The notes below the pieces were generated by a model. That model worked only from the letters and a program-made list of their open reading frames with translations, did not search any database and had not been told where the DNA came from. From the NCBI GenBank assembly GCA_903827375.1, contig CAIKHZ010000304.1, forward strand, positions 1-64,000: a stretch of DNA of 64,000 bases, in the 5' to 3' direction. The first letter of the stretch is position 1; the number at the start of each line of letters is the position of its first letter. Both the position numbers and the translations under genes were made by a program. This DNA comes from Akkermansiaceae bacterium. GTDB taxonomy: Bacteria > Verrucomicrobiota > Verrucomicrobiia > Verrucomicrobiales > Akkermansiaceae. Below are positions 44,871 to 53,712 of the stretch, one piece after another.

Positions 44871-45310
44871 AGTGGGTGAATGCGACGCAGCGGGGTGCAA
44901 GCGAACAAAGCCGCCACACGATACCCGTGCGAAGAGGGGCTGCGAAACGATGAGCCAAACGCCGGGTCATGGATGGGTACCGACGAGCGCTAACCGCTTA
45001 TTGCAAGCGGTCGCGGCAGTTTTTAATAAGGATCGTTTCTGAAAAATCATGAGGTGGCTGGATGCCGGGGGCTGGCTCATCAATGATGGACGACACCTGT
45101 TCGTCCGCCACTCATAGGCTGCCTGAAGCCGAGGAATACGGCAAAACCGCAGCCGGGGCAAGCTCGAATTTGCAGGGCAACCCATTTTGGCAATTTTCGG
45201 ATCAGAGAGCCCTAGACCAAGGAAAGGGGTCGTGTGCCTCGGTGGCAGCGGGAGTAATGCGCGGTTTCCGGCTTGAATTTTGCTCGCGATGCCGGAATAC
45301 TGCGGGCCAC
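44871..45310. other. Divergent intergenic region between infC and lpxC
   Basis: About 440 bp. The lpxC ORF is open back to 45062, but the added 83 residues show no relation to LpxC. I see no hairpin with T tract. Promoters for both genes must lie here; no clear -35/-10 pair was found by eye. Confidence 0.4.
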
Positions 45311-46627
45311 ATGACCCACGCAGTTCAGCATACGCTCGCCGGCACGGCCACCCTTGAAGGCACGTCACTCCACACGGGAGAGAGGGTTTCGCTCTCCATC
45401 AGCCCGGCACCAGAGGGCCACGGCTTGAAGTTTCGCCGCGTTGATCTGCCCGACCAGCCGTTTATCAGCGCGGATGTGGAAAAGGTCCAAACTGTTGAGC
45501 GCGCCACCACCCTGGCTGAGGGCTCCGTCAAGGTTCATACCGTCGAACACGTGATCTCCGCGCTCTGTGGCATGGGCATCGACAATGCCCTCATCGAAAT
45601 GAATGCCAACGAGCCTCCCATCGGCGATGGCTCGTCGCGGCCGTTTGTGGAACTCATCAAACAGGCGGGAATTTCGGCCCAAAGTGCGCCCAGCAAGGTT
45701 TGGGAAATTCGCGAGCCAATGCATTTGGAAACCGGAGACGGCACCCTTATCACCATTGTTCCGAGCAAGTCATTTCGGGTATCGGTCACCAACGTCGGCC
45801 CGGAGGGTCGTTTCACCCAGTATTTTTCCACTGAGGTGACTCCAGCCACTTATGAAAAGGAGATCTGTGGGGCGCGCACATTCGTGTACTACGAGGATGT
45901 CAAACCATTGCTAGACAAGGGATTGATCAAAGGAGGCTCGCTGGAGAGTGCCATTGTCATTCGTGGCAACGAAGTCATGTCCAAGGAGGCGCTGCGCTTC
46001 ACCAATGAGTTTGCGCGTCACAAGGCGCTTGACCTGATCGGCGATCTGATGCTCTCGGGCATCCGCATTCTGGGCCACGTCATGGCGATCAAACCAGGCC
46101 ATGGCCCCAACACCAAAATGGCGGCCAGGCTCAAGGCTGAGTATTCGAGGATGCGTTCGATGGTGCCCGCCCCCATCACCATTCCCAGCGGCGAAAGTGT
46201 GATGGATATCAACGAAGTGCTCAAAATCCTCCCACACCGCTACCCATTCCTCATGGTCGATCGCATCGTCGGTTTCGAGGGCGATAGCAAATGCACCGGC
46301 GTCAAAAACGTCACCATCAACGAACCCTACTTTGTCGGCCACTTCCCCGGCCACCCGATCATGCCGGGAGTTCTCCAACTCGAAGCCATGGCCCAAGTAT
46401 CTTCGGTGCTGATGCTGCGGAAACCGGAAAACATTGGCAAGATCGGCTACTTCATGAGCGCCGACAACGTCAAGTGGCGCCGTCCTGTGCTCCCCGGGGA
46501 TACCCTCATCATCGAGGGGGAGATCATCAAGATGCGTGGATCTATCGGCCAGACCCGTTGCCGCTGCATGGTCAACGGAGATACGGTCTCGGAAGCTGAC
46601 CTTAAATTCGGCCTCATCGACCGCTGA
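45311..46627 (+). CDS. lpxC/fabZ: Bifunctional LpxC deacetylase / FabZ dehydratase fusion
   Basis: 438 residues from [17 protein letters not shown]. Residues 1-290 are UDP-3-O-acyl-N-acetylglucosamine deacetylase, the committed step of lipid A synthesis: [11 protein letters not shown] with a zinc His about 76, [16 protein letters not shown], the second zinc site [13 protein letters not shown], and [13 protein letters not shown]. Residues about 298-438 are 3-hydroxyacyl-ACP dehydratase: [18 protein letters not shown] and [23 protein letters not shown] with the catalytic His and Glu. Such fusions are known in Bacteroidetes and some other phyla. The dehydratase supplies hydroxyacyl/enoyl-ACP turnover next to its consumer pathway. 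All active-site residues are present. Confidence 0.95.
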
Positions 46628-46675: not shown

Positions 46676-49435
46676 ATGAACCACGCCCGTCTTTTGATGC
46701 GAAATTGCCTGCGTTGTGGGCTATCATTGATGTTGTTGGCCGGCCACGCTCTGGCGGGAGGCTCCAGTGATTTCCGGGATGTGCCGCTGGAATTGGATGG
46801 CGTCAACGCCAGGGTCCCCAAGATCCTGGCAGAGGGGGCCAACAAGAGCGAGATCGTTGTCGGCTCGATCAGCAGAGGCGTCCCCAGCGCGGGCATTCTG
46901 CAAACAGGCGACGTGCTGCTCGGTGTGAATGGGAAGGTTTTTGAAAGTGATGCGATGGCGCTGTTCAACCATGCCGTGGCGGAGGCAAAAAAATCCACCG
47001 CTGCCACCAATCTCCACCTGATTCACAGCCGCGCGGGAGTCGTTCGCAACCTCGATTTCAATATCAACCCGCCACCACCGGATCTCACCAAGGATGGCAA
47101 GAAAACCGACACTCCAAGCTGGAATCTCGGTCCCACCGGCATGAAGGGATGGATATTTACCCGCGATTTCGATACCTCTGAAGCGCGGCAAATTTTGATA
47201 ACAGAAGTCGCGAAAGGCTCACCTGCCGACGGCTTGGTGGCGGTGGGCGATGTGATCGTCGGCATCGAAATCGTTGGCATCTGTGCCGGGCCTTTTGAAT
47301 CGGATGCGCGGGTGGCGTTCGGCAAGGCGATCACTGCGGCCGAAACCACCGAAGGCAAGGGCCAACTCAGGCTTCAGGTGTGGAGCAAGGGCGTCACCAA
47401 GCCCGTGACCGTCCCGCTCAAGGTGATGGGCAGTTACTCAGAGACCTCGCCCTTCAATCAGTGCCCTAAAGCCAAGCTGATCGTCGAACAAGGCTGCAGC
47501 GCCATTCTTAAACGTGGGTTGCAGTGTGGCGACTATTCTCCGGACAATTGGGACCCGTCCATTCCAGACAACGTCAACGCCCTGGCACTTCTGGCCAGCG
47601 GCAATCCGGCATATCTCCCGGCAATCAAGGCTTATGCTAACAAACTTGGGCCGCCGCAAATGAACCTTGTCCTCAAGGAAGGAATGTACGCATGGACTTG
47701 GAGTTATGCCAATCTTTTTCTAACTGAATACTATCTTGCCACCAAGGATGAATCCGTGCTGCCCGCCATCCGTGAGGTCAGCAAGAAAATCGCCATGGGC
47801 CAAAGTGCGGTCGGCACCTACGGTCACGGTTTCCGCGTGGCGGGCAACAACGGCACTCTTGGCGGCTACGGTGCGATCAATCAGGCGGGCCTGATTTGCT
47901 GGATGTCGATGGCGCTGGCACAAAAATGCGGGGTTGACGACCCGGTGCTGCGGGCGGCGGTGGAAAAATCTCGTACGTTTTACAGTTTTTACATAGGCAA
48001 GGGATCGATTCCCTATGGTGACCACCCGCCCTACTGGCTCCACGATGACAATGGCAAGAGTGGCGCGGCAGCCGTGACCTTCGACATTTTGGGAGATGCG
48101 GCGGGTACGCGGTTCTTCTCGCGGATGTCAACGGCCGCCTACGGCGAAAAGGAACTCGGCCATACCGGTAACTACCTCGGCTACCTGTGGGGCGCGCTTT
48201 CCGCCAACCGCGCCGGCCCCGCGGCCCTCGCTGCCTTCCTCAAGGAACAGCGCTGGTATTACGATCTGGCACGCCGCTGGGACGGCTCGTTCTTCACCAC
48301 CGCCCGCGATAACTATGACTTTGATATGACCGGTCTGTTCGTCCTGCATCAAGCCGTGCCGCTGCAAAAGATCTATATCACCGGCAAAGGCACACACCCG
48401 GATAACTTTGTGAGTGGTCCTGCCTTGCAACAAATTCTCGAAGGTGGGCGCGATTTTAACCTCGGCCCATTCGACTATGCCTATATCTTCAAGAGCAAGG
48501 AGCCATTGTTGAAGGCCCTCACCAATGGGTCGCCTACTGTGCGCCAGCGTGCTGCCAAGCAAGTGGCCAAGCTCAAGGATGACGTGACGCCCCAGCTTAT
48601 CACGCTGTTGGCCAGCAAGGATCTCAACGCCCGTTATGGGGCCTGCCTGGCTCTGCAATACATGGAAGGCCGCGCCGCCGCCGCCACTGACTGCCTCATC
48701 AACCAACTCTCCGAAGCCGATATGTGGCTGAGGGTGCGCGCCGCCTTCGCCCTCACCGGCATCGGCCGCCCCGCGCTCAAGGCGGTGCCCCAGTTGCTCA
48801 AAATGTCCGTCGTCATCAACCCCGCCGACCCCCGAGGACTTGAGGCGAAGTACCTGTCCTACGCCTTGTTTCGCGCCGACTTTATCGACCAAATTCCGCC
48901 CCAGCCCGGTCTGGTTGCCAATTCGTTGGATGGCATCGACCGCGAGTTGATCTATCCGGTCCTGCGGCGCATGCTTGCCAGTGACGACGGCATTGGCACC
49001 TTCGCGGTGCGCTCGATGTTCAAAACCCTGAGCACAGACGAGCTGAAATCACTGGAGCCGGAGATCATCAAGGTGGCTAACGACACCGCCCCGAGCGGCG
49101 AAATGTATGCCCAGGAAATCCGCGTGGACGCGCTTAAGTTTCTAGCGAAAAACAAGATCATCAAGGGTCTGCCGGTGTTTATCGAATATGCCAAGACGCA
49201 GAACGGTTGGGGCCAGCGGACCCGCGACATCCTCCCGCTGCTCAAGGAGTACGGCCCTGCCGCCTCCGAAATATTGCCGCAACTCAAAGCCCTGTCCGCC
49301 AGTTGGAAAGCCCAGGAAAAAGCAGCCAACCAAACCAAGGACACCCGTTCAGCTACGGCCGACGAGGTCATCAAATCCATCGAGGAAGCCAAGGATATCA
49401 ACCCAAACAGTCCCCACCAACAGCCCAATCCATGA
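46676..49435 (+). CDS. Secreted PDZ/toroid/HEAT protein, first paralogue (DUF6288-like)
   Basis: 919 residues with a signal peptide (CGLSLMLLAGHALAGG). Two PDZ-like domains (about 45-125: ISRGVPSAGILQTGDVLLGVNGK; about 150-250: EVAKGSPADGLVAVGDVIVGIE). An alpha/alpha-toroid-like domain follows (about 285-600), with YGAINQAGLICWMSMALAQKCGV, GSIPYGDHPPYWLHDDNGKSGAAAV and GHTGNYLGYLWGAL. The C-terminal part has HEAT-type repeats (about 615-830: VRQRAAKQVAKLKDD, LRVRAAFALTGIGRPAL). The type is known to me only from PVC secreted proteins annotated DUF6288; function unknown. The stop overlaps the next start by 4 bp. Confidence 0.75.
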   Translation: MNHARLLMRNCLRCGLSLMLLAGHALAGGSSDFRDVPLELDGVNARVPKILAEGANKSEIVVGSISRGVPSAGILQTGDVLLGVNGKVFESDAMALFNHAVAEAKKSTAATNLHLIHSRAGVVRNLDFNINPPPPDLTKDGKKTDTPSWNLGPTGMKGWIFTRDFDTSEARQILITEVAKGSPADGLVAVGDVIVGIEIVGICAGPFESDARVAFGKAITAAETTEGKGQLRLQVWSKGVTKPVTVPLKVMGSYSETSPFNQCPKAKLIVEQGCSAILKRGLQCGDYSPDNWDPSIPDNVNALALLASGNPAYLPAIKAYANKLGPPQMNLVLKEGMYAWTWSYANLFLTEYYLATKDESVLPAIREVSKKIAMGQSAVGTYGHGFRVAGNNGTLGGYGAINQAGLICWMSMALAQKCGVDDPVLRAAVEKSRTFYSFYIGKGSIPYGDHPPYWLHDDNGKSGAAAVTFDILGDAAGTRFFSRMSTAAYGEKELGHTGNYLGYLWGALSANRAGPAALAAFLKEQRWYYDLARRWDGSFFTTARDNYDFDMTGLFVLHQAVPLQKIYITGKGTHPDNFVSGPALQQILEGGRDFNLGPFDYAYIFKSKEPLLKALTNGSPTVRQRAAKQVAKLKDDVTPQLITLLASKDLNARYGACLALQYMEGRAAAATDCLINQLSEADMWLRVRAAFALTGIGRPALKAVPQLLKMSVVINPADPRGLEAKYLSYALFRADFIDQIPPQPGLVANSLDGIDRELIYPVLRRMLASDDGIGTFAVRSMFKTLSTDELKSLEPEIIKVANDTAPSGEMYAQEIRVDALKFLAKNKIIKGLPVFIEYAKTQNGWGQRTRDILPLLKEYGPAASEILPQLKALSASWKAQEKAANQTKDTRSATADEVIKSIEEAKDINPNSPHQQPNP

Positions 49436-51909
49436 AAATTTCCCGCACCCACCTGCTGTGCTTGGCCGCCCTGGCCGCGATGAGTTCCTGCGCCCAGGCA
49501 GCCGAAGCCCCGAAGACGCCGCCTGATTTGCGAACTCAGCGCGACGGCGTGAATCTCAGCGAAACTTGGAATCTGGGCGCGACGGGAATGCGCGGCTGGA
49601 TTTACACCCGTCCTGCATCCAATCTCGATAGCCAGCAAGGACGAATCACCGCTGCCAGCCGCCAAATCCTCGTCACCGACGTCGGACCCAAAACTCCGGC
49701 CGATGGCCTGATGAAAGTCGATGATATCATTCTCGGGGTCGGCGGCAAGCCGTTCAGTGATGATGCCCGCAAGACACTGGCCAAGGCCATCACCGAAGCG
49801 GAAAAGACCGCCAGCCAAGGTCGTCTCGATCTAACGGTCTGGCGCGAGGGCAAGACTCGCGAGGTCCGGCTGAAGTTGAAGGTTTTGGGAAGTTACAGCG
49901 CCACCGCCCCTTACAACTGCCCGAAGAGCCAGTTGATTCTCGCCGAGGCCTGCAAGGCGCTTGAGAAGGAACCTCTAAGTAAAAGCCGATTTGGTTCAAT
50001 CAACGCGCTGGCGCTGCTGGCTACCGGCAATCCGCAATACCTGCCGAAGGTGCGCGACTATGCCCGCTCGACAGCCCCCGCAGATCTCCATCTGAAGGGA
50101 TGCAGCTCGTGGATGTGGGGCTACGATAGTTTGCTGCTCTGCGAGTATTATCTTCTAACGAACGATAAGCAGGTGTTGCCTGCCATCCAGCAATACACCA
50201 TCGCCCTCGCCAAGGGCCAGGGGATGTACGGCACCTTTGGTCACGGCGGTGCCGAACCCACGCCCGATGGCCAACTTCACGGCTCGATTCCGCCCTATGG
50301 CCCGGTCAACGCCGCAGGACTCATCGCCAACATTGCCATCGTGATGGGCAAGAAGTGCGGCGTGAGCGATCCCGAGATTGATCCGGCTATCGAACGCTCT
50401 GCCAAGTTTTTCGGATACTTTGTCGATAAAGGGTCGGTTCCCTATGGCGAGCACATGCCGTGGGCCAGTCATGACAACAATGGCAAGAATGCGATGGCGG
50501 CTGTGATGTATGGCGTCCAGGGCAATCGCGTCGCGCAAACTCAATTCTATGCCAAAATGGTCACTGCATCCTTTCAGAGCCGCGAATACGGGCACACGGG
50601 CCAAGGGTTCAGCTATCTGTGGGGTGCATTGGGTGCTAGCATGGGCGGCCCGGCAGCCGCCGCCGCCTTTGTCAGGGAGGCCTCCTGGCACCTCGACCTG
50701 ATGCGGCGCTGCGATGGCTCGTTCACCTATGATGGTGGGGAACAGCACGGGCCCGGCCAGAAAAAGCCCGATGAGAACACCTATTTCGCCCATCCCAGTT
50801 ACTATGGCATCAGTCCCACCGCCACTTATGTTCTAACGTATTCGCTGCCCCTTAAGAAACTTTGCATCACCGGCAGGGACGAGAATCCAGCAAATTTCCT
50901 GAGCCAACAAGACGTCGCTCAAGCCGTCGTGTCCGGCAAGTTCGACGTTGCACGGACCAACAAAACCCCGCAGGAGCTGGTGGCGGCGTTCGCCGACTGG
51001 TCGCCCATCGCTCGCGGTTGGGCAGCCGAGGAACTCGCCAAGCGGCCCGAGGCCCAATCCATGGTGCCCGCATTGATAGCCATGGCCGAGGGCGCGGATG
51101 CGCACCAGCGGCAAGGTGCTTGTGAGGCGCTGGGTTGCATCAAGGACCCGGCGGCGTTGCCGGTGCTGGTTCGCTTGCTAACCCATCAGGACCGTTGGCT
51201 GCGGGTCAAGGCCGCCAACGCCTTAAAAAAAATGGGGGATGCCGCCAAGCCGGTGCTGCCCGGGATGTTGCAGGCCGTGGTGGCCACCGCCGAGCCTTTG
51301 CAACCGATTGTGTGGGACGACCCGATCCAGCTCACGCACGGAGAACTGGCTGCCACGCTGTTTGGCAATGTAATGAAGAACTCCATCGAGGGTGTGGATC
51401 GCAAGTGGCTCTATCCGGCGATTCAGGCAGTGGCTCTCAATGCCGACGGCATGGCGCGTGCCACCCTGCGCAAGACGTTTGAGAAGTTGCTGACATTGGA
51501 AGACGTTGAGGCACTGGGGCCTGATTTAGTCGCTGCCGTTAGAACGCCGAGTCCGGCGGACAAGATGTTTGCCAATGAGATCCGCATGGGCGCTTACAAG
51601 GCACTCGCTAAGTATCACTACAAGGAGGGCATCGCCGCCGCCGTTATCTTTGCCAAAACTCAGGGCGGGCACGGCAGCCAGAAACGCACCGGTGAGATTA
51701 TGAAGGAGTTGATCCCCTACGGCACGGCCGCCCGCGAAGTGTTGCCGGGACTTAAGGAATTGATCGCGCAATTCAATACCGAATGCGCTGAAGGTCGATT
51801 CCCCAAGGGGGCGATTAACCAGGTTCGCATCGACTCAGTTGAAGAAGCTATCAAGGCCATTGAAGCTGCCACCACCCAACCGGAATTGCGAAGCATCACA
51901 GCGAAGTAA
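49432..51909 (+). CDS. Secreted PDZ/toroid/HEAT protein, second paralogue (DUF6288-like)
   Basis: 825 residues from MKISRTHLLCLAALAAMSSCAQA; the longer ORF from 49207 lies inside the previous gene. It shares the plan of its neighbour but has one PDZ-like domain (about 65-165: DVGPKTPADGLMKVDDIILGVGGK). The toroid region has YGPVNAAGLIANIAIVMGKKCGV, SVPYGEHMPWASHDNNGKNA and GHTGQGFSYLWGALGASMGGPAAAAAF. HEAT-type repeats follow (about 490-790: ARGWAAEELAKRPEAQ, LRVKAANALKKMGDAAKP). Similar blocks (GxHxPxxxHDxNGK, HTGxxxxYLWGAL) show an old tandem duplication. Conserved His, Asp and Asn in these blocks could form a catalytic or metal site. Confidence 0.75.
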   Translation: MKISRTHLLCLAALAAMSSCAQAAEAPKTPPDLRTQRDGVNLSETWNLGATGMRGWIYTRPASNLDSQQGRITAASRQILVTDVGPKTPADGLMKVDDIILGVGGKPFSDDARKTLAKAITEAEKTASQGRLDLTVWREGKTREVRLKLKVLGSYSATAPYNCPKSQLILAEACKALEKEPLSKSRFGSINALALLATGNPQYLPKVRDYARSTAPADLHLKGCSSWMWGYDSLLLCEYYLLTNDKQVLPAIQQYTIALAKGQGMYGTFGHGGAEPTPDGQLHGSIPPYGPVNAAGLIANIAIVMGKKCGVSDPEIDPAIERSAKFFGYFVDKGSVPYGEHMPWASHDNNGKNAMAAVMYGVQGNRVAQTQFYAKMVTASFQSREYGHTGQGFSYLWGALGASMGGPAAAAAFVREASWHLDLMRRCDGSFTYDGGEQHGPGQKKPDENTYFAHPSYYGISPTATYVLTYSLPLKKLCITGRDENPANFLSQQDVAQAVVSGKFDVARTNKTPQELVAAFADWSPIARGWAAEELAKRPEAQSMVPALIAMAEGADAHQRQGACEALGCIKDPAALPVLVRLLTHQDRWLRVKAANALKKMGDAAKPVLPGMLQAVVATAEPLQPIVWDDPIQLTHGELAATLFGNVMKNSIEGVDRKWLYPAIQAVALNADGMARATLRKTFEKLLTLEDVEALGPDLVAAVRTPSPADKMFANEIRMGAYKALAKYHYKEGIAAAVIFAKTQGGHGSQKRTGEIMKELIPYGTAAREVLPGLKELIAQFNTECAEGRFPKGAINQVRIDSVEEAIKAIEAATTQPELRSITAK

Positions 51910-51918
51910 GAATTGCAC

Positions 51919-53712
51919 ATGAAACTAACCATTATCTCAATCACCTCACTCGGCTTGTTGGCCGGCGCACTTGCGACGGCTGCAGACGTGCCAGCCCTGC
52001 CACGGCCCAAACTGCAAATCATCAATGGAAGCAACGAGACCGTCGATGTTTTCTGGCTCAAGTCTGCCACCGAACGCATATCTAACGGATCGATCGCGGC
52101 GGGGCAGGAAACGATCCTAACCACCACCCTGGGTCATTGTTTTGAAGTGGTGGGGCGTGATGACAAAGCGGTGGCCAAGGTTACCAGCGAGGTTCCGGTG
52201 CAGGGGTACCGCTTCGATCCGCTGGGCAAGGACGGAGTGCCTGCGTTCTACACGCAATCCGTGAGCGCCAATGGTTTTCCCATCGTCAGCTCTGCCAAAG
52301 TCAACCCATACGCACTCAAGGAAGCCGCCTATCTGGTGAACCAAATGCTTGCCAAACGGCCCGACGTGCGCGATGCCATGATCAAGAGTGGGGCGCGGCT
52401 GTGTGTCATGGCATATAACGAATACACGACGGATTTGCCGGAGTTTGTGCGGATGTGCGACGAGAAGGAGCCGGGGTTCGAGGACCTGCCGGCCAAGGAC
52501 TTTTGGGATGCGAGGGCTCGCGGCCTCGGTGGCAGCGATACCGACCCGTTCTGCGTGTGTGCCGAGGAGAATGTCCTTTGCTACCCGGGCGACCCATATG
52601 CCAAAGAATGCATACTCATCCACGAGTTTGCCCATAATATTCATCTGCGTGGTATGATGAACGTGGACCCGACGTTCGACGCACGTCTGCAAGCCACCTA
52701 CGCTGCGGCGATGAAGGCCGGCCTGTGGAAGGGCAAGTATGCTGCGGTGAACCATTGCGAGTACTTTGCCGTCGGCGTGGCCGGTTGGTATGGGCACGAT
52801 CGGGTGAATGATCACGATCACAATCATGTGCATACCCGTGAAACATTGTTAGAATATGATCCTGCCCTCGCTGCGCTCTGCCGCGAGGTGTTCGGCGATA
52901 CGGTGGTGCAACACACCAAGCCGGCGACCCGCCTCAACGGCCATCTGGCTGGCTACGATCCGGCGGCGGCGCCGACCTTTGAGTGGCCGCAGCGCCTGCG
53001 CCAGGCCCAGGCGCAGATTCATGCCAAGGCGGTGGCGCGGGAAAAAGCGGCTAACCCGGACAGCCACCACGAAATCAGGAATATTCAAGGCTGGAACGTC
53101 CACCTCAGCCGCGAATTGCTGACCACTGAGGCCAAGGCCACAGCACGCGCCCTTGAGCTGTTGGAAGCGCAGCTAGCGGAAATCGTGCGGGTGGTGCCGG
53201 CCCCTGCTGTTGCTGAGTTGCGCAAGGTTGCGCTGTGGGTTTCGCCCGAGTATCCTCAGATTCCACCGCGTGCCGAATATCATTCTGAAGGCACTTGGTT
53301 AAGCGAGAACGGACGCAACCCGGCTATGGCACGGGGCGTCGAGTTCACCAACGTGCGCATCTTCGAGGCCGAAACCCGCCGGATGCCCAACTTCGTCTTG
53401 CATGAACTCGCCCATGCCTACCACGACCGCGTGCTCGGCGGCCAACCAGCTATCGGCGAAATCGCCGCCGCCTACCAAAAAGCCAAGGCCAGCGGCAAGT
53501 ATGACCGCGTCGAACGCCAGGATTCCGAGGGCCGCAAGCGCATGGACCGTGCCTATGCACTAACCAATCCGTTTGAGTACTTCGCGGAATCCACCGAAGC
53601 GTATTTCGGCCACAATGATTTTTTTCCATACACCCATGCCGAATTGCAACAGCACGACCCAGAGATGTGCGCATTGCTAGGCAAATTATGGGGGGTAGCA
53701 GTTAGTAAGTAA
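51919..53712 (+). CDS. Secreted protein with VHL-like beta domain and two metallopeptidase domains
   Basis: 597 residues with a signal peptide (SITSLGLLAGALATAAD). Residues about 33-85 (LQIINGSNETVDVFWLK, GSIAAGQETILTTTLGHCFEV) resemble the pVHL beta domain. Two zinc-peptidase domains follow, each with HExxH and a downstream aromatic-Glu motif: HEFAHNIH about 235 with CEYFAVGVAGWYG, and HELAHAYHD about 495 with NPFEYFAESTEAYFGHND. The latter set is typical of the anthrax lethal factor-like (ATLF) group. Both sites keep the expected His and Glu. It lies 9 bp after the second DUF6288-like gene, so the three form one operon. Substrate unknown; secretion to periplasm or outside is likely. Confidence 0.75.
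   Translation: MKLTIISITSLGLLAGALATAADVPALPRPKLQIINGSNETVDVFWLKSATERISNGSIAAGQETILTTTLGHCFEVVGRDDKAVAKVTSEVPVQGYRFDPLGKDGVPAFYTQSVSANGFPIVSSAKVNPYALKEAAYLVNQMLAKRPDVRDAMIKSGARLCVMAYNEYTTDLPEFVRMCDEKEPGFEDLPAKDFWDARARGLGGSDTDPFCVCAEENVLCYPGDPYAKECILIHEFAHNIHLRGMMNVDPTFDARLQATYAAAMKAGLWKGKYAAVNHCEYFAVGVAGWYGHDRVNDHDHNHVHTRETLLEYDPALAALCREVFGDTVVQHTKPATRLNGHLAGYDPAAAPTFEWPQRLRQAQAQIHAKAVAREKAANPDSHHEIRNIQGWNVHLSRELLTTEAKATARALELLEAQLAEIVRVVPAPAVAELRKVALWVSPEYPQIPPRAEYHSEGTWLSENGRNPAMARGVEFTNVRIFEAETRRMPNFVLHELAHAYHDRVLGGQPAIGEIAAAYQKAKASGKYDRVERQDSEGRKRMDRAYALTNPFEYFAESTEAYFGHNDFFPYTHAELQQHDPEMCALLGKLWGVAVSK

Follow-up and report, generated by a model that had tools for sequence, protein, structure and literature searches.

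What might a set of secreted proteins that combines PDZ, HEAT, and metallopeptidase domains be for? The question is raised by three consecutive genes in the window (the whole 64,000-nt stretch analyzed) of Akkermansiaceae bacterium contig CAIKHZ010000304.1, part of a 6.1-Mb genome in 370 contigs. Genes A and B encode paralogous proteins of the DUF6288 family; the third, the zincin gene, encodes a protein with two metallopeptidase domains. A first-pass annotation, made from the letters of the DNA, read the trio as a periplasmic or outer-surface system in which PDZ and HEAT domains capture substrates that the zincin cuts. Absent from that annotation was a domain at residues 29–101 of the zincin that resembles the β domain of VHL, and this is the most informative part of the gene set. 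With some confidence, we favor an explanation in which the three proteins work together outside the cytoplasm to dismantle hydroxyproline-containing glycoproteins, for example those of the algal-wall type.

Results

The Zincin Begins with a VHL-like Domain

An AlphaFold2 model of the zincin, built from a 27-sequence alignment, has a pLDDT of 86.9 and places a β domain at the N terminus. When this domain was compared with the PDB by Foldseek, all 50 listed matches were pVHL, the best with an E value of 2.9e-4, a probability of 1.00, and 16% identity. The Pfam VHL β family, PF01847, has no match in the window's domain or in its genome. The domain is therefore classed, from the model and the alignments, as a divergent relative that we term VHL-like and not as a member of PF01847. 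A second-round hidden Markov model seeded with the domain reached proteins that score above the PF01847 cut-off, and in each of these the VHL β domain precedes a DPPIV/S9 prolyl peptidase. A mixed profile of zincin-type and canonical VHL-S9 copies matched human VHL (E = 1.3e-4), which is not fully independent evidence because the canonical copies were included.

The best-known role of VHL is in the oxygen sensing of animals, where it recognizes hydroxyproline. The hydroxyproline pocket of the human protein consists of W88, Y98, H110, S111, H115, and W117, with the hydroxyl contacted by S111 and H115 (PMC9528729). In our alignment the equivalent residues of the zincin are W46, N56, T68, T69, H73, and F75, respectively. 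Across 76 bacterial domains, position 46 is Trp in 96%, position 69 is Thr in 96%, position 73 is His in 93%, and position 75 is Phe in 95% (otherwise Trp). As aligned, the hydroxyl-contacting side of the pocket is kept or conservatively replaced, and two pocket walls differ. The likeness to the β domain of pVHL (PF01847), the subunit through which the animal VHL E3 ligase reads hydroxyproline, thus lies in the top Foldseek matches, in W88 and H115, and in the hydroxyl contact at S111 (Thr in the zincin). In contrast to pVHL, the zincin has no α domain or elongin part, is secreted and joined to a protease, carries Asn and Phe in place of Y98 and W117, and shows no PF01847 match in the window copy.

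A sample of 289 genomes of the phylum contained 23 VHL β domains, spread over 18 genomes, and 19 of these domains precede DPPIV/S9 prolyl peptidases. The hydroxyproline pocket is nearly intact in the VHL-S9 copies (L313–L335, L219:6295–9081, L184:785–2986, L088, and L043). A literature search for bacterial VHL linked to proteases yielded a single item, a computational description of a hypothetical Litorilituus protein with a VHL domain (PMC9002001).

Two Gluzincin-type Halves Follow

The two HExxH domains reported by the first-pass annotation are present, as HEFAH (residues 235–239) and HELAH (495–499). After each comes an EYFA motif whose Glu is invariant: E281 in 26 of 26 homologues and E553 in 23 of 23. 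The sets H235/E236/H239 with E281 and H495/E496/H499 with E553 give the pattern of HExxH plus distal Glu and are invariant in the aligned homologues. The two halves align with each other (22% identity, E = 5e-7; hhalign 98.9%, E = 2e-17), an internal duplication that, judged by this alignment, goes back to one ancestor.

The C half matched Pfam M90 (PF06167) at 40.4 bits against a gathering cut-off of 26.2 (E = 3.2e-10), a match confined to that half; its match to ATLF (7.8e-6, 26.2 bits) falls below the 27.4 cut-off. When profiles were compared with the PDB, Pro-Pro endopeptidases were nearest to the N half (E = 0.007–0.014), followed by other ATLF-like proteins, all at weak scores. For the C half, MtfA was nearest and Pro-Pro endopeptidases came next, again weakly, and a single-sequence PDB search with this half returned nothing. 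The M90 match, at 3e-10, is what likens the zincin to MtfA (Mlc titration factor A; M90, PF06167). That peptidase is located in the cytoplasm and has one domain, whereas the zincin is secreted and duplicated. Pro-Pro endopeptidases belong to family M34, bind zinc through two His and a Glu, and cut between prolines (PMC9147577). PPEP-1 and PPEP-2 (MEROPS M34) share with the zincin secretion and the gluzincin pattern of HExxH plus distal Glu, and among solved structures they come nearest to the N half (E about 0.01); the zincin differs from them in its twin domain, its extra VHL-like domain, and its larger insertions. By analogy, it may have a Pro-Pro-endopeptidase-like specificity.

A Hydroxyproline Dehydratase Gene Adjoins Some Zincin Genes

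Relatives of the zincin were sought in one genome per species across 85,462 species. The best 80 of 441 confirmed relatives were kept; Planctomycetota and Verrucomicrobiota account for most of these, a few belong to Armatimonadota metagenome-assembled genomes (MAGs), and many are from lake samples according to their titles. Some record titles are apparently wrong: L213, a contig like those of the Planctomycetes–Verrucomicrobia–Chlamydiae (PVC) bacteria, is titled Klebsiella pneumoniae, and MAG contigs L170, L172, L176, and L182 are titled Akkermansia muciniphila.

A gene for a hydroxyproline-degrading dehydratase adjoins the zincin gene in 8 of the 80 orthologous loci. The three copies tested scored 603–615 bits with the NCBIfam equivalog NF043002 (cut-off 500), and the best PDB match was 4mgg (1.4e-153). 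LhpJ, from the hydroxyproline cluster of Labrenzia, is a characterized enzyme of this class (PMC5144071). In L213 the gene order is dehydratase, VHL-zincin, and a DUF6288 gene of the subfamily to which B belongs (B-type). In L179 the 3′ end of the dehydratase gene, cut by the contig end, is followed by genes for a VHL twin zincin, a DUF6288 protein, a SASA esterase, and a sulfatase. L287 and L279 also have the dehydratase gene, on the same strand. The source genome has one gene of the Cys-Cys type proline racemase/hydroxyproline epimerase family.

Among the relatives, zincin domains are fused to S9/DPPIV peptidases, DUF885, sulfatase, glycoside hydrolase (GH) family 95, GH127 β-L-arabinofuranosidase, and a DUF7133 protein. 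Single-zincin fusions to GH95 (contig C290, L086:8838–12002) and GH127 (contig C200, L091:6243–9458) occur in the source genome, which has 13 GH127 matches. The part of a study of Latescibacteria drawn on here states that GH127 takes arabinose off hydroxyproline in extensins and infers degradation of hydroxyproline-rich glycoproteins for those bacteria (PMC4454575). Its set of GH127, fucosidase, and rhamnosidase has comparable families here and beside B-type genes; VHL-zincins and DUF6288 are not mentioned in that part of the account. Schlesneria-type MAGs (L163:9983–13495; similar in L162, L164, L166, and L188) encode VHL twin zincins of about 1,170–1,230 amino acids, and the additional C-terminal part of the L163 protein is a DUF885 domain.

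A and B Have Conserved Polar Residues in DUF6288

The description of A and B as PDZ and HEAT proteins of the DUF6288 kind held up in Pfam. Both are full-length family members, each scoring 457 bits with PF19805 against a gathering cut-off of 26.3, and both contain PDZ and HEAT_2 domains, with an additional N-terminal PDZ domain in A. The sequence blocks quoted by the first-pass annotation proved to be family motifs when 53 DUF6288 domains were aligned: in B numbering, H271 is conserved in 94%, N350 in 96%, K352 in 91%, and H388 in 100%. The conserved polar residues are C163, K165, W227, E238, D245, H271, N293, N350, K352, H388, and R425. Such strong conservation across homologues suggests an active or binding site.

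The AlphaFold2 model of full-length B is helical (pLDDT 77.9), and its fold matches in the PDB are mostly HEAT proteins, as the HEAT repeats dominate a full-length search. The first-pass annotation likened this domain to an α/α toroid. Searches with DUF6288 profiles matched no toroid family and no second Pfam family, and gave only nonsignificant PDB matches, to epsin (E = 0.053) and to the endoglucanase-related 6gdt (E = 0.058). A glycosidase or cyclase fold was not assigned on these matches. A literature search on DUF6288 found no described function.

The source genome has 21 DUF6288 genes, A and B among them, and some genomes have up to 20–30. Three DUF6288 genes lie in a tandem run on contig C188 of the source genome (L085:4380–12824). 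Giant PDZ-DUF6288-HEAT proteins of about 2,500–4,200 amino acids are encoded in L142, L144, L145, L147, L148, and L150. Surface modules (Big, cadherin, YDG, PA14, or PASTA) are present in the three that were scanned and support an outer-surface location.

The Trio Is a Local Assembly of Recurrent Parts

Among 39 genomes (the source and its relatives), DUF6288 occurs in 24, a homologue of a zincin half in 29, and both in 23 (Fisher p = 2e-4, with no correction for phylogeny or genome size). In 9 of the 80 zincin loci a DUF6288 gene lies within 10 kb, on the same strand in all nine and adjoining in L179, L207, and L213. Of 260 family genomes, 33 carry the B-type subfamily (57%–69% identity), with about 49 genes in all. 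B-type genes stand directly beside a same-strand zincin gene in at least four other loci, where 0.05–0.16 would be expected. The zincin is of the N type with VHL in L207/L276 and L213 and of the C type without VHL in L255 and L287; in L279 and L283 it is about one gene away. A is rarer than the B type. Its closest orthologue (78%–79%, in G418) has other DUF6288 genes around it but no zincin, and the three twin-zincin orthologues of G037, G017, and G015 have no DUF6288 gene nearby.

The idea that the two DUF6288 genes and the zincin gene keep company across genomes thus survives in part: the exact trio was seen in the source genome only, and B-zincin adjacency recurs. The trio is therefore a local assembly of recurrent parts and not a conserved three-gene operon. 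These counts bear on two alternatives. One is the general capture-and-cleavage complex of the first-pass annotation, where proteins would reach the zincin by way of PDZ and HEAT domains. The required domains, two intact zincin sites, and the recurrent adjacency of B-type genes are all present, but A is not a conserved neighbor and most zincin loci have no DUF6288 gene, which makes a fixed three-protein complex unlikely; we regard this version as improbable. The other is that local shuffling joined unrelated secreted genes. It would account for a trio confined to one genome and for the origin of A and B in a family with 21 copies there, but not for a B-zincin adjacency far above expectation and always on the same strand, and we give it very little credence.

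B-type genes also neighbor genes for SASA esterases (several of which are joined to laminin-G and DUF2341), GH29, GH2, GH78, GH106, GH127, and sulfatase, along with some unrelated genes. SASA genes are modestly represented near DUF6288 in the source genome (within a few kb on three contigs). In L284 (2733–5384) a gene for a Roc-COR leucine-rich-repeat GTPase overlaps or abuts a B-type gene. A third alternative draws on the predominance of SASA, GH, and sulfatase genes in this list, on the Big, cadherin, PA14, and PASTA modules of the giant DUF6288 proteins, and on the fusions of zincin domains to GH95, GH127, and sulfatase. It holds that the set is an accessory of polysaccharide utilization, with DUF6288 proteins as glycan-active or glycan-binding surface proteins, zincins that process surface proteins or release them, and a VHL-like domain that is just a β-sandwich spacer without any part in hydroxyproline recognition. 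We consider it rather unlikely, as it leaves unexplained the dehydratase gene beside the zincin, the retention of the hydroxyl-contacting residues, and the location of VHL domains mostly on prolyl peptidases.

Gene Organization

Inspection of the open reading frames and their junctions agreed with the earlier description of three genes with a 4-bp overlap of A and B and a 9-bp gap (51910–51918) before the zincin gene (Table 1). All three products have Sec-type leaders, as judged by eye, and A, B, and the zincin gene are putatively co-transcribed. A fused LpxC-FabZ gene (45062–46627, same strand) ends 48 bp upstream of A, so the transcription unit may start further upstream, and lipid A and DUF6288 genes may share a transcript. 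Scans of the operon for promoters and terminators gave no matches above chance.

Table 1. Features of the Three-Gene Set in the Window
Feature	Position	Strand	Extent	Basis
Gene A	46676..49435	+	919 amino acids, ATG	Secreted PDZ - PDZ/DUF6288 - HEAT; PF19805 457 bits, PDZ 31 bits, HEAT_2 37.8 bits
First PDZ domain of A	46829..46948	+	Best stretch, residues 52–91	PF00595 3.3e-7
DUF6288 domain of A, including second PDZ	47186..48388	+	Residues 171–571	Pfam
HEAT repeats of A	48500..48742	+	Best stretch, residues 609–689	Pfam
Gene B	49432..51909	+	825 amino acids, ATG	Secreted PDZ-DUF6288-HEAT; member of recurrent B-type subfamily
DUF6288 domain of B	49660..50877	+	Residues 77–482	Pfam, conserved residues
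HEAT repeats of B	50974..51228	+	Best stretch, residues 515–599	Pfam, AlphaFold2 model
Zincin gene	51919..53712	+	597 amino acids, ATG	Secreted; VHL-like domain and two gluzincin-type metallopeptidase domains
VHL-β-like domain of zincin	52003..52221	+	Residues 29–101	Foldseek against PDB, profile match to human VHL
N-terminal zincin domain	52237..53028	+	About residues 107–370	HEFAH and E281; closest PDB Pro-Pro endopeptidases, E about 0.01
HEFAH motif, N half	52621..52635	+	Residues 235–239	H235, E236, H239 invariant 26/26
C-terminal zincin domain	53065..53700	+	About residues 383–594	Pfam M90 3.2e-10, ATLF 7.8e-6
HELAH motif, C half	53401..53415	+	Residues 495–499	H495, E496, H499 invariant 23/23

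Discussion

A secreted capture-and-cleave system remains a fair description of the trio, but the capture domain with the best support is the VHL-like domain of the zincin and not PDZ or HEAT, and the neighboring genes indicate a setting of glycoprotein and polysaccharide digestion. Under the favored explanation, digestion of hydroxyproline-containing glycoproteins, esterases, sulfatases, and glycosidases would strip glycans from hydroxyproline-rich glycoproteins outside the cytoplasm. The zincin would dock through its VHL-like domain on 4-hydroxyproline or on a hydroxyproline glycan stub, and its two M34/M90-type metallopeptidase domains would cut stretches rich in proline and hydroxyproline. 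S9 peptidases would trim the products, and imported hydroxyproline would be catabolized. A and B would act on or hold the same substrate; the DUF6288 domain would probably bind the attached glycan or process it, and peptide ends or partner proteins may be held by the PDZ and HEAT parts. We infer this substrate, and the binding and cleavage specificities that go with it, from the domains and neighbors described above.

Several observations weigh against this proposal. The dehydratase gene was not found within the window, and the characterized dehydratase substrate is cis-3-hydroxyproline, whereas VHL reads trans-4-hydroxyproline. No evident hydroxyproline cluster or operon was seen among the open reading frames surrounding the proline racemase-family gene, so we attach little weight to that gene. 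With Y98 replaced by N56 and W117 by F75, hydroxyproline binding may be altered or lost, and the sequence link to Pro-Pro endopeptidases is weak (E about 0.01). A DUF6288 gene lies within 10 kb of the zincin gene in just 9 of the 80 loci, and the full A-B-zincin arrangement was seen in the source genome alone. Because glycan enzymes abound in these bacteria in any case, the glycan context is weak evidence.

A broader idea can be put forward tentatively, at less than even expectation: in planctomycetes, verrucomicrobia, and their relatives, VHL-type domains may read hydroxyproline outside the cell and so direct prolyl peptidases, and zincins that resemble Pro-Pro endopeptidases, to glycoproteins rich in it, with DUF6288 a new protein class that acts on the same hydroxyproline-linked glycans. 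With the VHL-like domain recognized, a gene set that lacked an explanation becomes a candidate hydroxyproline-targeting system that can be tested. If the proposal is true, there would be a first functional handle on DUF6288 and a concrete route by which PVC bacteria of lakes and other waters digest hydroxyproline-rich glycoproteins. Hydroxyproline reading would then also serve nutrition, which would bear on the origin of the animal VHL domain.
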